Positions 34,887-44,253 of a stretch of DNA of 64,000 nucleotides are shown piece by piece. This DNA is from Dysgonomonadaceae bacterium zrk40 (GTDB lineage Bacteria; Bacteroidota; Bacteroidia; Bacteroidales; Dysgonomonadaceae). The notes below the pieces were generated by a model. It saw nothing but the letters and a program-made list of their open reading frames with translations, was not told the DNA's origin and ran no database searches. Position 1 is the stretch's first letter. Each line of letters starts with the position of its first letter. Made by a program: the position numbers and the translations under genes. The stretch spans positions 1,612,001 through 1,676,000 of the forward strand of contig CP070276.1 in assembly GCA_016916535.1 (NCBI GenBank), in the 5' to 3' direction.

Positions 34887-36038
34887 CTATTTCCAATCGT
34901 ATTCATCATCAGTAACGGGACCAGACCATACAGCCCCGCCCAAATCGGTATTCAGGCTCACGGCAATGTGAGAGAACTCACTATCAGGTGTTGCTCCATG
35001 CCAATGTACAACATCAGAAGGTATTTCGACATAATCGCCTTTCTGCAAGAATCGGGCTGGTTGACCTTTGGCTTTATAAACACCTTTTCCTTCTGTGACG
35101 AAAAGGAGCTGGCCACCCGGGTGTGAATGCCAGTGTGTTCTTGCTCCAGGAGCAAAGGTGACATATCCTACACTGGCATGCAGTCCACTTTCCGTAGTTC
35201 CAAGCATGTTGAGCCATACCGTCCCTGTAAAGTTGGGACTGTTTGTCAAGCTTCCTTTTGACGACCATGATTCATTGCGATGATTATCTTCATCTCTGTT
35301 TTTTTTCATGCGATCGCTCACCAAATCATTTAAAACAGATTGAGCCTCCCGTGCTTCTTTTTTACCCACTTTCACTTTTAGGATTTCTATGAATTCATTT
35401 AACTGGCCAGGGGTGAATCCAAGATGCAGACATATATTCAAATGGGAACGTAACATGGGTTCAGCCCTGCCGATGCTACTGAGTACGGAAATGGTTACCA
35501 ATTCACGCTCAGCAAATGTCAGTACATTACGTTCGAAAAGATCGGCGAACAAATGTTCTTTCAGGAATATCTCAATTACCGGCGCAAAAGCAGCATAACC
35601 ACTTTGTGTATCAGGTTGCGGAACTCCGGTCAAGGCTTCCAGTATTTCCTTACCACGCTCGTACTTGCTCCTCTCGTCAATGATGCTTGAAGCATCTTTA
35701 CCCACTTCATCTGTTATTCCCTTTGATTCGCGCTCTTTGATTACCTCCATGAGTGTTTGTAAACCCCTGATGCTGCGGGGAAATCCACTGTATGCATAGA
35801 GATGAACCATTGCTTCTTTCACCTCATTCACCGTTAATCCGGCATCCAGCCCTTCCTACAGTGCTGTTTTTAGCTGATGCAAATCTCCGATTGCAGTGTA
35901 AGCTGCAATCGGAATCAGGCTTTTTTGTTTCAGGCTCAACACATCCTTTTCGCCTGCCGTATCTTGGGCATTCAAATTACCAAACACACAAAAAACAATC
36001 ATCAAAACGGTGAATGTAGGAATCTTCTTCTCTCTCAT
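34887..36038 (-). pseudogene. Exported carboxymuconolactone decarboxylase-cupin protein, interrupted by an in-frame TAG
   Basis: The intact reading would be 383 codons from the ATG at 36038. A signal peptide (TFTVLMIVFCVFGNLNAQ) is followed by a carboxymuconolactone decarboxylase-like segment. Codon 61 is TAG (35858-35856), read in HQLKTAL-stop-EGLDAGLTVNE, with both sides clearly the same domain. A second CMD-type region follows (FAERELVTISVLSSIGRAEP, LNICLHLGFTPGQLNE), then a cupin (THWHSHPGGQLLFV, DVVHWHGATPDS) to the end. A shorter ORF from 35831 would lack the signal peptide and the first helices. It is the last gene of the cluster. Either it is broken by a single base change, or the stop is read through; both parts are otherwise undamaged. 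Confidence 0.85.
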
Positions 36039-36103
36039 TTTCTTGCTATTTATGCTAATTATCATGAAAATATTGAACATAATTTTTACTTATCAGGCCA
36101 TGT

Positions 36104-37759
36104 TCAGATACCTCCTCTCGACTGAATACGAGTCCTGCATTCGGTTGCTTTTTCAATCACATCCAGCCTTTGTTTTCGGGTATCACTTTTGCCAACAATT
36201 TGACCATCCGGTTGGATATCCAGGATTTCTTCCTTTTCGGTATCATATCCGGGCCAAAGAGGCAAACCTTCACCATTTGGGTTACCCGTCTTGGCAAAAT
36301 TAGCCCAGTATGTGTTCAGAATATGGGCCACCTCTTCATCTGTTGTTGTGGTTTCAGCAACACCCCGGCGAGCGTTGATATTGTGAAAGACGTAGGCGAT
36401 CTCAGCCCCGTGTCCGGCACCAAATGGCATCCATTCCAGGCTGTTGGCGGGAACATAACCATAATGGAAGATATAAGCCGGTGCATCGTTGGCGGCAAAG
36501 ATCCTTGCTGCAAAGCGGGCCGGTTCGGCCCATACCCAGTCGGTATTAAACAGGGTGACAATCTCGGCAAGCTCTTTGTTTCCCTCCGGGTCATACGCTG
36601 CTTTTGCATCCTCCTCCAGTTTACCGAAAACAGAAAACAGTTCTTCCTTTGTAGTGACTGAATGAACAAAGTTCCCACCGATTTCGGCACTGCAGCTCTC
36701 GATGATGAGTGGAACGTTTAGATGCCTACCGGCTTTATAGGCACTCTCAGCCGTTTCCACAACAAGTTTGCCATCGAGAATAGGGCCGGAATAAATTCGG
36801 GGACCTCCCTCTCCATCATTTTCCTGACCGCCGTCCACGATCTCCGCAACACTCAGGGCACGTAATTTTTCCAGTGCAGCTTTATCCGTACCCTCAATGC
36901 CCTGTTTACGGGCGAAATTTACACCGATTGTTTCTGCAGAAACAGGATACAAGGGATCAGCGTTTTCCCTGTTAATCGGTCTGCCGGTGAGCACTCCATC
37001 CCTGCTGCCTCCGGAATGACTGATAGCCTTGTGGAAAAGTCCCTTTGCCAGTGGGATCGTAAGCAGTGAGTGTACCGCAACCCCTCCGGCTGATTGACCA
37101 AAAATGGTAACATTGTTCGGGTCACCACCAAAAGCAGTGATATTTTCCTGTACCCACTCAAGAGCAGCAATCATGTCCATAAAAGCGTAGCTTCCTTTTG
37201 GCTCATCGGGATGCTCCCTGGATAAAGCAGGAAAGGCAAAGTGTCCGAGACGACCGAGCCTGTAGTTGAAGGTCATCAGGATGACACCCTGTTTTGCAAA
37301 CGCGTCACCAGCCGTGACAGCTCCTGCACCACTTCCGCCCACAAAAGCGCCACCATGGATCCAGACCATCACCGGATATTTGCTTTGGGGTTTGGCTCCA
37401 CTCGGAACCCATAGATTCAGGTAGAGACAATCTTCTGATGTTCCTTCCCTAATGGTTCCTGGAGCAGTACCCCATCCTCCCTGTGCGCAGTCAGGACCAA
37501 ACGACAGGGCATCCCTAACTCCTTCCCAGGCGGTCACAGGTTGTGGCGGCCGCCAACGATATTCACCCATCGGTGGTGCGGCATAGGGTATGCCTTTAAA
37601 AACCGATACATCATCGACAGTAGCTCCCTGAATTTGTCCAGAAGATATTCGTATGATGGGACCACCAACTTCTGCAATATCATATGCTTGTTGCGCGTAT
37701 AAAGATAATGCGACTACCCATACAAAAAAAACTGCACCTATTTTCTTAATATCCATCAC
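36104..37759 (-). CDS. Type-B carboxylesterase, exported
   Basis: 551 residues with signal peptide (AVFFVWVVALSLYAQQ). It has the type-B signatures EDCLYLNLWVPSG and the nucleophile elbow FGQSAGGVAVH with S223. The oxyanion HGGAF (about 135-139) and a His in GAGHGAEIAYVF are present. The family hydrolyses carboxylic esters of varied alcohols; the exported form could act on polyketide, plant or xenobiotic esters. It is the second-to-last gene of the seven-gene minus-strand block, 1 bp behind the aldo-keto reductase fusion and 65 bp before the broken CMD-cupin gene. Other alpha/beta hydrolases in the block belong to different subfamilies. Confidence 0.9.
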   Translation of the reverse strand: MMDIKKIGAVFFVWVVALSLYAQQAYDIAEVGGPIIRISSGQIQGATVDDVSVFKGIPYAAPPMGEYRWRPPQPVTAWEGVRDALSFGPDCAQGGWGTAPGTIREGTSEDCLYLNLWVPSGAKPQSKYPVMVWIHGGAFVGGSGAGAVTAGDAFAKQGVILMTFNYRLGRLGHFAFPALSREHPDEPKGSYAFMDMIAALEWVQENITAFGGDPNNVTIFGQSAGGVAVHSLLTIPLAKGLFHKAISHSGGSRDGVLTGRPINRENADPLYPVSAETIGVNFARKQGIEGTDKAALEKLRALSVAEIVDGGQENDGEGGPRIYSGPILDGKLVVETAESAYKAGRHLNVPLIIESCSAEIGGNFVHSVTTKEELFSVFGKLEEDAKAAYDPEGNKELAEIVTLFNTDWVWAEPARFAARIFAANDAPAYIFHYGYVPANSLEWMPFGAGHGAEIAYVFHNINARRGVAETTTTDEEVAHILNTYWANFAKTGNPNGEGLPLWPGYDTEKEEILDIQPDGQIVGKSDTRKQRLDVIEKATECRTRIQSRGGI

Positions 37760-37760
37760 C

Positions 37761-43234: not shown

Positions 43235-43312
43235 TTTGTATACAGATTACGGTTTAACCTACCATTTTTACTGATTAATCCTGTAAGATAGCAATTTAAT
43301 TGAAGTTATCAC

Positions 43313-43320
43313 TATTTTTG
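43313..43320 (+). promoter_or_regulatory. Candidate -7 element of the AraC regulator
   Basis: TATTTTTG matches TAnnTTTG 21 bp before the ATG at 43342. Confidence 0.45.
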
Positions 43321-43341
43321 TAGGCATTATATATAGAAAGT

Positions 43342-44253
43342 ATGGAAGGAATTTACAGATTTGACACAGTTAATGCATACAACCAATTGAATAATCATGA
43401 AACACTGCATCCATTGGTGAGTGTGATTGATTTTTCAAAAGCCAAACCAAGAACTTGGGGGAAAGATAAGAAAGTGCGGATCAATTATGGTCTGTATTGT
43501 ATATTCCTGAAAGATGTAAATTGTGGTGACATCAAATATGGACGTAACTATTACGACTACCAGGAAGGTACACTTGTTTTCGTTTCACCGGGACAAGTGA
43601 TGGAGCTGGATAATGATGGTTTGGTCTATCAACCCAAAGGGCATGCGCTGGTATTTCATCCGGATCTGCTTCAGGGTACTCAATTGGCAAAAATTATCAG
43701 CGACTATAATTTCTTCAGTTACAAATCAAATGAAGCATTGCACCTGTCAGAACGTGAAAGAAACATAGTGCTGGATTGTTTCGCAAAAATAGAATATGAG
43801 TTGCAACAGAGTGTGGATAAGCACAGTAAGAAACTCATCGCTTCCAATATAGAACTGTTTCTGAATTACTGCAACCGTTTTTACGACAGGCAATTTATCA
43901 CCAGAGAAAATGTCAATCAGGGAATAATAGAGAAATTTGAAGAGAAGTTGAACGACTATTTCTCATCAGACAAGCCTCAAAGATTCGGATTACCCTCCGT
44001 GGCCTACTTTGCAGATGTACTCCACTTGTCGGCAAATTACTTTGGAGATCTGATAAAAAAGGAGACAGGTAAATCTGCTAAAGAGTATATTCAATTCGAA
44101 ATCATCAACCTGGCAAAGAACCTTATATTCAACAAGGAGATAACGATCAGCGAGATTGCCCATTCGTTGGGGTTCAAATACCCCCAGCATTTTACACGAA
44201 TGTTCAAGAATGAAACAGGATTGACACCGAATGATTTCAGGAATCAGAACTGA
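43342..44253 (+). CDS. AraC-family transcriptional regulator of the adjacent operon
   Basis: 303 residues. The N-terminal 190 residues look like a cupin-type sensor (EGTLVFVSPGQVMELDNDGL, HALVFHPDLLQGT). The C-terminal AraC domain has two HTH units: GLPSVAYFADVLHLSANYFG followed by KKETGKSAKEYIQ, and ITISEIAHSLGFKYPQHFTR followed by FKNETGLTPNDFR. It is divergent from and 181 bp away from the first gene of the seven-gene block, the usual position of a pathway-specific regulator. Inducer unknown. AraC proteins with this layout often sit beside aldo-keto reductase and short-chain dehydrogenase genes in Bacteroidota. Confidence 0.9.
   Translation: MEGIYRFDTVNAYNQLNNHETLHPLVSVIDFSKAKPRTWGKDKKVRINYGLYCIFLKDVNCGDIKYGRNYYDYQEGTLVFVSPGQVMELDNDGLVYQPKGHALVFHPDLLQGTQLAKIISDYNFFSYKSNEALHLSERERNIVLDCFAKIEYELQQSVDKHSKKLIASNIELFLNYCNRFYDRQFITRENVNQGIIEKFEEKLNDYFSSDKPQRFGLPSVAYFADVLHLSANYFGDLIKKETGKSAKEYIQFEIINLAKNLIFNKEITISEIAHSLGFKYPQHFTRMFKNETGLTPNDFRNQN

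Follow-up and report, generated by a model that had tools for sequence, protein, structure and literature searches.

Gene Content of the Block

The window analyzed here is a 64-kb stretch of the 3.47 Mb, three-contig genome of Dysgonomonadaceae bacterium zrk40 (contig CP070276.1). Its subject is a block of seven minus-strand genes in one direction (34887–43181) that is faced by a divergent gene for an AraC-type regulator (43342–44253, plus strand; Pfam HTH_18 and HTH_AraC). With the starts as tabulated, the intergenic spacers of the block are 1 to 65 bases in length. The initial annotation had described seven co-directional genes with short spacers facing an AraC gene, and this layout was confirmed on the sequence. 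Profile searches also matched the families it had named: three aldo-keto reductases (AKRs), three different α/β hydrolases, one CMD-cupin protein, and a regulator with an AraC-type helix-turn-helix (HTH). No transporter or CoA-linked catabolic gene was found in a profile search of the block genes.

Read from 43181 to 34887, the block begins with AKR_A (42174–43181), a predicted cytosolic AKR with an NADPH-type Arg motif beside its catalytic tetrad (PF00248, 253 bits). It is followed by a lipoprotein hydrolase of the SulE/esterase 713 type (41024–42130), assigned from PDB matches, its catalytic triad, and a lipobox (LGSSC) that was read by eye. AKR_B (40163–41014) is a predicted cytosolic DkgA-type AKR with 43% identity to E. 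coli DkgA and an IPKS...R motif. The fourth gene (39079–40131) encodes a putatively exported YcjY/UilS-like hydrolase (YcjY, PDB: 5xb6, E = 4e-57) with a cysteine at the nucleophile position (GVCGG). A putatively exported fusion of a DUF4440 domain to an AKR domain, termed AKR_D, comes next (37761–39050; Pfam DUF4440 and Aldo_ket_red), and then a putatively exported type-B carboxylesterase (36104–37759; COesterase, 366 bits) and the CMD-cupin gene (34887–36038; Pfam CMD and Cupin_2). The catalytic residues (Asp, Tyr, Lys, and His) are conserved in all three AKRs of the window.

Two of the gene models differ from those first proposed. The CMD-cupin gene had been taken as the open reading frame at 34887–35831, which is the part that follows an in-frame TAG (35858–35856) and lacks a signal; the gene opens at an ATG at 36038 with a signal-peptide-like start and is split by this stop codon. 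The frame is uninterrupted in the relatives L029 and L031 (390 and 391 codons, stop to stop). The middle AKR had been read as a plain AKR and is instead the exported DUF4440-AKR fusion, an arrangement seen only in the window and in L029 among 36 DUF4440 matches. By eye, an intact signal peptide or lipobox is present in four of the block genes (SulE type, YcjY type, DUF4440-AKR, and carboxylesterase) and absent from AKR_A and AKR_B. The earlier count of five out of seven therefore holds for four genes, and for a fifth only if the broken CMD-cupin gene is included.

Conservation as a Unit

The closest matches to the SulE-type protein of the window were found in Proteiniphilum and in a Porphyromonadaceae metagenome-assembled genome (89–93%). 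Within a sample of 295 Bacteroidales genomes, in which the own genome is included in all counts, orthologs were called at E-values of ≤1e-30 (SulE type), 1e-60 (YcjY type), 1e-100 (carboxylesterase), and 1e-40 (CMD-cupin), giving 14, 8, 6, and 20 carriers, respectively. Homologs scattered singly had been named beforehand as the outcome that would refute a system. This is not the case for the carboxylesterase, which is within 4 kb of the SulE-type gene on the same contig in 6/6 carriers, nor for the YcjY-type gene, which is within 9 kb of it in 7/8; in the eighth carrier (G278), the YcjY-type gene adjoins CMD and cupin genes. Scattering was seen for the CMD-cupin gene, which is beside the SulE-type gene in seven carriers, beside the YcjY-type gene in G278, and elsewhere in 12/20, and for some SulE homologs, as no block family surrounds those of L021 and L022.

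A broader set of 69 loci, 58 from a collection of 84,980 species and 11 from the order sample, was fetched by a match to the SulE-type protein. L016 and L017, being copies of L035 and L040, had already been removed, while the near-identical L071, L072, and L073 were all kept. At least three of the seven other block families lie within 9 kb of the SulE-type gene in 42/69 loci. The families found near it were AraC (47 loci), YcjY (38), AKR (37), CMD (35), cupin (34), DUF4440 (31), and carboxylesterase (30), with PQQ-type propellers (12 loci) and flavodoxins (9 loci) as frequent extra neighbors. Block-family neighbors share the strand of the SulE-type esterase in 225 of 232 instances, and the AraC gene is divergent from it in 48 of 49. 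Among the comparable genes, dN/dS against L029 and L031 ranged from 0.05 to 0.27; AKR_B has no ortholog in either relative, and the carboxylesterase and AKR_A have none in L029. Purifying selection acts on the comparable block genes.

These data bear on the possibility that there is no functional unit at all and that chance or shared mobility brought the hydrolases and reductases together. Composition does vary between close relatives, as seen from the absence of the carboxylesterase and AKR_A in L029, and the SulE-type gene has none of the other block families around it in 7/69 loci and one in 6/69. Against this stand the agreement in strand and the divergence of the AraC gene, dN/dS values well under 1, a single open frame in L079 that holds both YcjY and CMD parts, and the conserved operator described below. 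The explanation has already been weakened by this evidence and is considered very improbable. As judged from its sequence, the block is a real, conserved operon. No open-access paper describing the gene set was found by listing, with subscription journals mostly outside the search.

Fusions of block families also occur in L026 (9104–12142), where one frame joins a SulE-type part to a following DUF4440 and another apparently holds both YcjY and cupin parts.

Operator and Divergent Promoters

In Bacteroidota, the -7 box of promoters has the form TAnnTTTG, and AraC-type activators usually bind two direct-repeat half-sites, the nearer of which lies just upstream of the promoter. Words common to the spacers beside the AraC genes defined a 45-bp block with the consensus ATCaGTAA.a.tGGTA.aa.Aa.C.GTAATctgTATAc. 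In the window, comparison of the spacers places it at 43231–43275 (minus strand) as two direct repeats approximately 21 bp apart (ATCmGTAA...GGTA and CmGTAATcTGTATA). The scan covered 44 of 46 spacers, related sequences included (L030 and L072 were dropped), with shuffles and leave-one-out scoring as controls. In 34/44 spacers, the operator outscored all of 440 shuffles, and 32 pass leave-one-out. Two of the 34 (L076 and L071) only just exceed the threshold and are not among the 32 loci used for spacing. Across 28 loci, the mean pairwise identity is 0.73 in the operator versus 0.40 and 0.38 in its flanks.

Spacing to the operator was used to assign a -7 box on either side. The box of the block promoter, GATCTTTG, is at 43208–43215 (minus strand) and that of the AraC gene promoter, TATTTTTG, is at 43313–43320 (plus strand). 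On the block side, the distance between the TTTG element and the operator start is 63 or 64 bp in 29/32 loci; on the AraC side, 41–43 bp separate the element from the operator in 27/32. It is very probable from this layout that 43231–43275 is the AraC operator, and a direct-repeat operator between divergent promoters appears to be newly identified here. The near half-site ends approximately 23 bp before the -7 box of the block, where a class II activator would be expected to sit. Together, the conserved neighborhood and the single operator-promoter layout support the original proposal of a system under AraC control.

At up to three mismatches, the genome has one operator site, which is located at the block. 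The pattern was found at 92 sites in 54 of the 295 genomes, compared with 22 matches when it is read backwards.

Hydrolases and the CMD-Cupin Protein

The SulE-type protein matches PDB entry 4q34 most strongly (E = 3e-130), followed by SulE chains (2e-65 to 2e-63) and 1qlw (3e-38). Its triad is kept in the aligned homologs (Ser in 68/68, Glu in 68/68, and His in 67/67). With this homology and a Ser-Glu-His triad without a GXSXG motif, as has been described for SulE (PMC10356948), the protein falls into the SulE/esterase 713 family. It shares the complete triad with SulE, esterase 713, and 4Q34 but differ from them in being a predicted lipoprotein inside a conserved operon.

SulE has a putative signal peptide and de-esterifies sulfonylurea herbicides (PMC10356948), which raises the possibility that the block inactivates ester- or lactone-bearing signals, herbicides, or antibiotics. 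The occurrence of related clusters on plasmids typed as conjugative would suit such a role, as would the match of the YcjY-type protein to the model of UilS, a lactonase (PMC11633161). The latter match is well below the curated threshold for an acyl-homoserine lactone lactonase, however (NF047920, 74.7 bits versus a cut-off of 400), and three AKRs would be left unexplained. The lid and surface loops are described as differing between SulE, 4Q34, and esterase 713 (PMC10356948), so the substrate is not transferable among them. Taken together, inactivation of this kind is quite improbable. In the YcjY-type family, a cysteine occupies the nucleophile position in 38/38 aligned homologs.

The combination of an AraC-type regulator with a CMD-family gene is shared with the RclR/rclX and RclABC systems, where RclR is an AraC-type sensor of hypochlorous acid (HOCl) and the P. 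aeruginosa RclX protein is described as CMD-like (PMC7464077, PMC7950407). The block may likewise be a response to HOCl or peroxide in which AraC would be an RclR-like cysteine sensor and the CMD protein an AhpD-like peroxidase. In the regulator, Cys61 is kept in 41/45 homologs, Cys177 in 44/45, and Cys53 in 27/45, although a cysteine pair for RclR-type sensing is only conjectural. Klebsiella and Pantoea plasmid versions of the gene set are annotated with a heavy-metal-type two-component system, and that of Klebsiella passes the cztR/silR/copR subfamily cut-off; its response regulator, however, is below the HprR cut-off (268 versus 353 bits). Unlike the Rcl systems, the block contains hydrolases and AKRs, and its CMD domain lacks the CXXC motif of an AhpD-like peroxidase of the RclX type, with a single cysteine in the corresponding region (RSHLNICLHLG). 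Several carriers belong, as we assume, to anaerobic groups, for which HOCl would be an unlikely challenge. An oxidant response is regarded as improbable.

A third alternative is a catabolic pathway in which plant phenolic, aromatic, or acetylated esters or lactones are opened outside the cell and their products reduced and used as a carbon source. Type-B carboxylesterases, DLH-like hydrolases, CMD domains, and SnoaL-like DUF4440 domains are common in ester and aromatic pathways, and all four are present in the block; the habitats of the named SulE carriers presumably are plants, guts, soil, and digesters. However, the profile search of the block genes gave neither an uptake system nor a CoA ligase, and no ring-cleavage or β-ketoadipate gene. 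The CMD domain is far from the PcaC 4-carboxymuconolactone decarboxylase model (TIGR02425, 30.6 bits versus a cut-off of 155.7). In addition, flavodoxin and AKR genes are the usual neighbors where the other sites of the regulator have an AraC gene (7/9; see below). This pathway is held to be unlikely, if not strongly so.

When tested against curated model cut-offs and motifs, the reactive-chlorine, quorum-quenching, and β-ketoadipate readings all became less likely. The cupin part keeps its histidines and glutamine among aligned homologs. It scored 120 bits in the window against the (R)-mandelonitrile lyase model (NF049940, cut-off 140), and the cupin of L165 scored 144 bits.

The AraC Subfamily at Other Sites

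Fifteen loci were chosen automatically around operator sites and viewed with 1.5-kb flanks. Two are SulE blocks (L158 and L159), and the other 13 include four with a close AraC homolog (55–62%), one with a weak homolog, and three with a flavodoxin. From the 92 sites, 11 in as many genomes were followed further. Four of these (G209, G058, G278, and G021) were picked after an AraC gene had been seen there, six for their few mismatches, and one (G019) by kinship; one-mismatch sites in G258, G058, G182, and G113 were left out. An AraC homolog of this subfamily (55–63%) is beside 9/11 followed sites, and a flavodoxin and/or AKR_A adjoins seven of these nine. Among the seven sites picked by match or kinship, five have the AraC gene, all five with a flavodoxin and/or AKR_A. 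Where AraC adjoins the site, the gene content thus appears to be mostly that of a carbonyl response.

Two of the followed loci, L165 and L167, are richer in genes: beside the same AraC subfamily, they have AKRs, flavodoxin, CMD, and an Fe-type alcohol dehydrogenase. The dehydrogenases scored 255 bits (L165) and 551 bits (L167) against PRK15138 (cut-off 645), which we take to be the model of YqhD.

A Proposed Carbonyl Detoxification Operon

In E. coli, glyoxal and furfural lead the AraC-type regulator YqhC to activate yqhD and dkgA (PMC5297802), and YqhC is described as having a single binding site in the genome (PMC8249747; see also PMC8262776). The block resembles this system in its divergent AraC-type activator, one dedicated site (here predicted), and a DkgA-type reductase, AKR_B, under the divergent AraC gene. 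Furthermore, YqhD-like reductases, albeit below the model cut-off, are encoded in two sister operons whose regulators belong to this AraC subfamily. Unlike the YqhC system, the block adds exported hydrolases. With these comparisons in mind, the block is proposed to be an AraC-activated operon, acquired horizontally, that detoxifies reactive carbonyls and their ester or lactone precursors; a probability of about 0.48 is assigned to this reading. It is best read as working like YqhC-yqhD-dkgA, with a non-orthologous regulator and added exported hydrolases.

In such an operon, an inducing electrophile would activate AraC, whose binding site would be the single direct-repeat operator between the divergent promoters. 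Judging by their families, the exported SulE-type lipoprotein, the carboxylesterase, and the Cys-nucleophile YcjY-type hydrolase may act outside the cytoplasm to cleave esters or lactones. Carbonyls that are released or leak in may be reduced by the exported DUF4440-AKR protein together with the cytosolic AKR_A and AKR_B. Extracytoplasmic opening of esters or lactones followed by carbonyl reduction, as suggested in the initial annotation, is plausible. The CMD-cupin protein, broken in the window, would act beside the hydrolases.

Several observations weigh against a carbonyl response. Three hydrolases are more than it needs, and in the Proteobacteria the related gene sets are under LysR or two-component regulators. 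The reversed operator pattern still gives 22 matches versus 92 forward, and only four of the 13 automatically chosen non-block sites have a close AraC gene and three a flavodoxin within their 1.5-kb flanks. Among the followed sites, L168 and L171 have no AraC gene nearby, while AraC is present at L163 and L164 without a flavodoxin or AKR gene. In L163 (2085–3799), the same AraC subfamily and a three-mismatch site are found beside a sialate esterase-like gene, and this subfamily may also serve other operons. No YqhD homolog was found among the scanned open reading frames of the block and its neighbors, which do not comprise every one in the window. Orthology with YqhC was rejected, as the match is confined to the HTH (26% over 80 aa). 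A shared operator was rejected as well; the E. coli yqhC-yqhD spacer holds one half-site with three mismatches, and a 9.5-kb E. coli stretch has three half-site matches where 8.7 are expected by chance. Since the regulator is not orthologous and no operator is shared, the block would work like the YqhC system without being a member of it.

If the proposed detoxification role is correct, AraC control of carbonyl defense in Bacteroidota would parallel YqhC of Enterobacteria by convergence. An unnamed gene block also becomes a testable regulon whose operator, pair of promoters, and genes are specified and for which a candidate class of inducer can be named.

Export and the AKR Cofactor Residue

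AKRs, flavodoxins, CMD proteins, and cupin proteins are normally cytosolic. Signal peptides in the relatives were called by a purpose-made hydrophobicity rule, which flags 5/53 AraC rows (taken as its error level) and also falsely flags AKR_A of the window. A signal peptide or lipobox was called for DUF4440 in 32/36, SulE type in 63/72, YcjY in 31/40, carboxylesterase in 30/34, CMD in 32/36, flavodoxin in 11/12, and propeller proteins in 14/14. The figure for cupins (31/37) is unsafe because the rule looked inside the protein in CMD-cupin fusions. AKR_B has no convincing signal in relatives. An RR-type signal is found in 20/33 AKR_A proteins, that of the window being without one. Of ten AKR_D rows, seven have a Sec-type signal, two are DUF4440 fusions, and one is a different AKR (L067) with an RR-type signal; in the window, the AKR_D domain is located behind the exported DUF4440. 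Three rows were assigned to the exported group by hand, namely the two DUF4440-AKR fusions among the cluster and plasmid AKRs and L209 in the phylum-wide set described below.

Export coincides with a residue difference at the position where an arginine clamps the 2'-phosphate of NADPH. Among the cluster and plasmid AKRs, this position is a histidine in 36/37 exported proteins and an arginine in 34/36 non-exported ones; the AKR_D clade also has glycine for lysine. From 30 control loci of Bacteroidota, 29 gave an AKR row (one being AKR_A of the window itself, and some recurring in the phylum-wide set); none is exported and one has the histidine. The phylum-wide set consists of 50 rows, 20 of which were hand-picked for long frames, and has histidine in 18/19 exported and arginine in 26/30 readable non-exported AKRs. 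Three non-exported members have the histidine, L221 is exported with arginine, and the motif of L195 is unreadable.

A functional reading of this difference was tested on a tree and not adopted. The AKR_A type needs only two changes in export, and the independent-pairs test had two pairs and hence no power. Together with an earlier tree, which excluded L067_16936 and L114_12931, this points to few independent origins. Since the histidine is present in two of three export origins, counting the separate AKR_D clade, the difference is reported as a clade feature. Rat AKR1B7 (PDB: 3o3r), presumably an NADPH enzyme, has a histidine aligned at the arginine position, which weighs against the cofactor reading; perakine reductase has a leucine. 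The AKR_D segment scored 53.3 bits with 1M9H, which we take to be an engineered NADH-using DKG reductase with K232G and R238H, versus 46.0 for the native 1A80 and 1HW6. The His/Arg difference may be regarded as a lead and not as proof of another cofactor.

A wider extension of the proposal is that the gene family forms an envelope-side carbonyl-reduction system in which AKRs, flavodoxins, CMD proteins, and cupins are exported and the exported AKRs would use a cofactor other than free NADPH. This is speculative and considered unlikely, with the histidine of the exported AKRs as its support. If exported reductases do work, the source of AKR reducing power outside the cytoplasm needs explaining.

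Genomic Site and Plasmid Relatives

The block adjoins a tRNA-Arg(TCT) gene (44564–44640, minus strand; ARAGORN) whose counterpart is beside GDH in three relatives. A 25-bp terminator hairpin identified by a repeat search brackets the block, with one copy downstream of the block (34717–34741, minus strand; RNA fold z = -4.8) and the other downstream of the tRNA gene (44529–44553, minus strand; z = -7.1). The 3.47 Mb of the genome contain no third copy with two or fewer mismatches. The bracketing hairpins look like the outcome of an insertion beside the tRNA, although no integrase is present among the block genes. No empty insertion site was found in relatives, and in G297 the position at this tRNA is occupied by other genes. 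GDH and tRNA-Arg stay together in the three relatives. One of these, L099, has a similar hairpin at tRNA-Arg, with none within three mismatches of the pattern, and other genes beyond it (1–12424), presumably for a DUF421-like membrane protein and a β-galactosidase-like protein, among others. The tRNA-Arg site may be a variable spot because L099 holds different genes beyond the same tRNA-Arg. In L029 and L031, the block occurs without GDH, TrkA, and TrkH in the available DNA and is thus at another place.

Related gene sets recur across Bacteroidota and travel on plasmids across phyla. The SulE-type protein was matched by 87 of 72,556 plasmid records, of which 30 are typed as conjugative. At least one further block family is beside the SulE-type gene in 10 of the 11 annotated plasmid stretches examined, so its association with the block families is not unseen in sequence records. 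The annotated plasmid relatives add genes for nitroreductase, flavodoxin, short-chain dehydrogenase/reductase (SDR), aldehyde oxidoreductase, and PQQ-dehydrogenase.

Like the block, enterobacterial and rhizobial plasmid clusters such as those of pK66-45-1, pROTS050421_B, and pRmeGR4a contain CMD, cupin, and AKR genes along with a SulE-type hydrolase, and many also have a second hydrolase, a flavodoxin, or an SDR. Unlike the block, they are under LysR or two-component control, encode CMD and cupin as separate genes, and are accompanied by genes for nitroreductase, a major facilitator superfamily (MFS) pump, cytochrome P460, and DUF4405. Neither carboxylesterase nor DUF4440 appears as a gene name in five annotation tables of the plasmid clusters, the tables being incomplete.

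On the side of the block away from the tRNA gene, the window holds an adjoining TrkH-TrkA potassium-uptake pair (32008–34460). A search of six relatives at E = 1e-50, made without a positive control, gave no match to its TrkA. The Klebsiella plasmid stretch L105 (1229–15035) carries an MFS pump, a nitroreductase, a heavy-metal-type two-component system, cupin, CMD, flavodoxin, a SulE-type hydrolase, AKRs, LysR, and an SDR. In the Emticicia plasmid stretch L107 (5094–15152), an annotated PQQ-dependent dehydrogenase and molybdopterin oxidoreductases are found beside the SulE-type gene.

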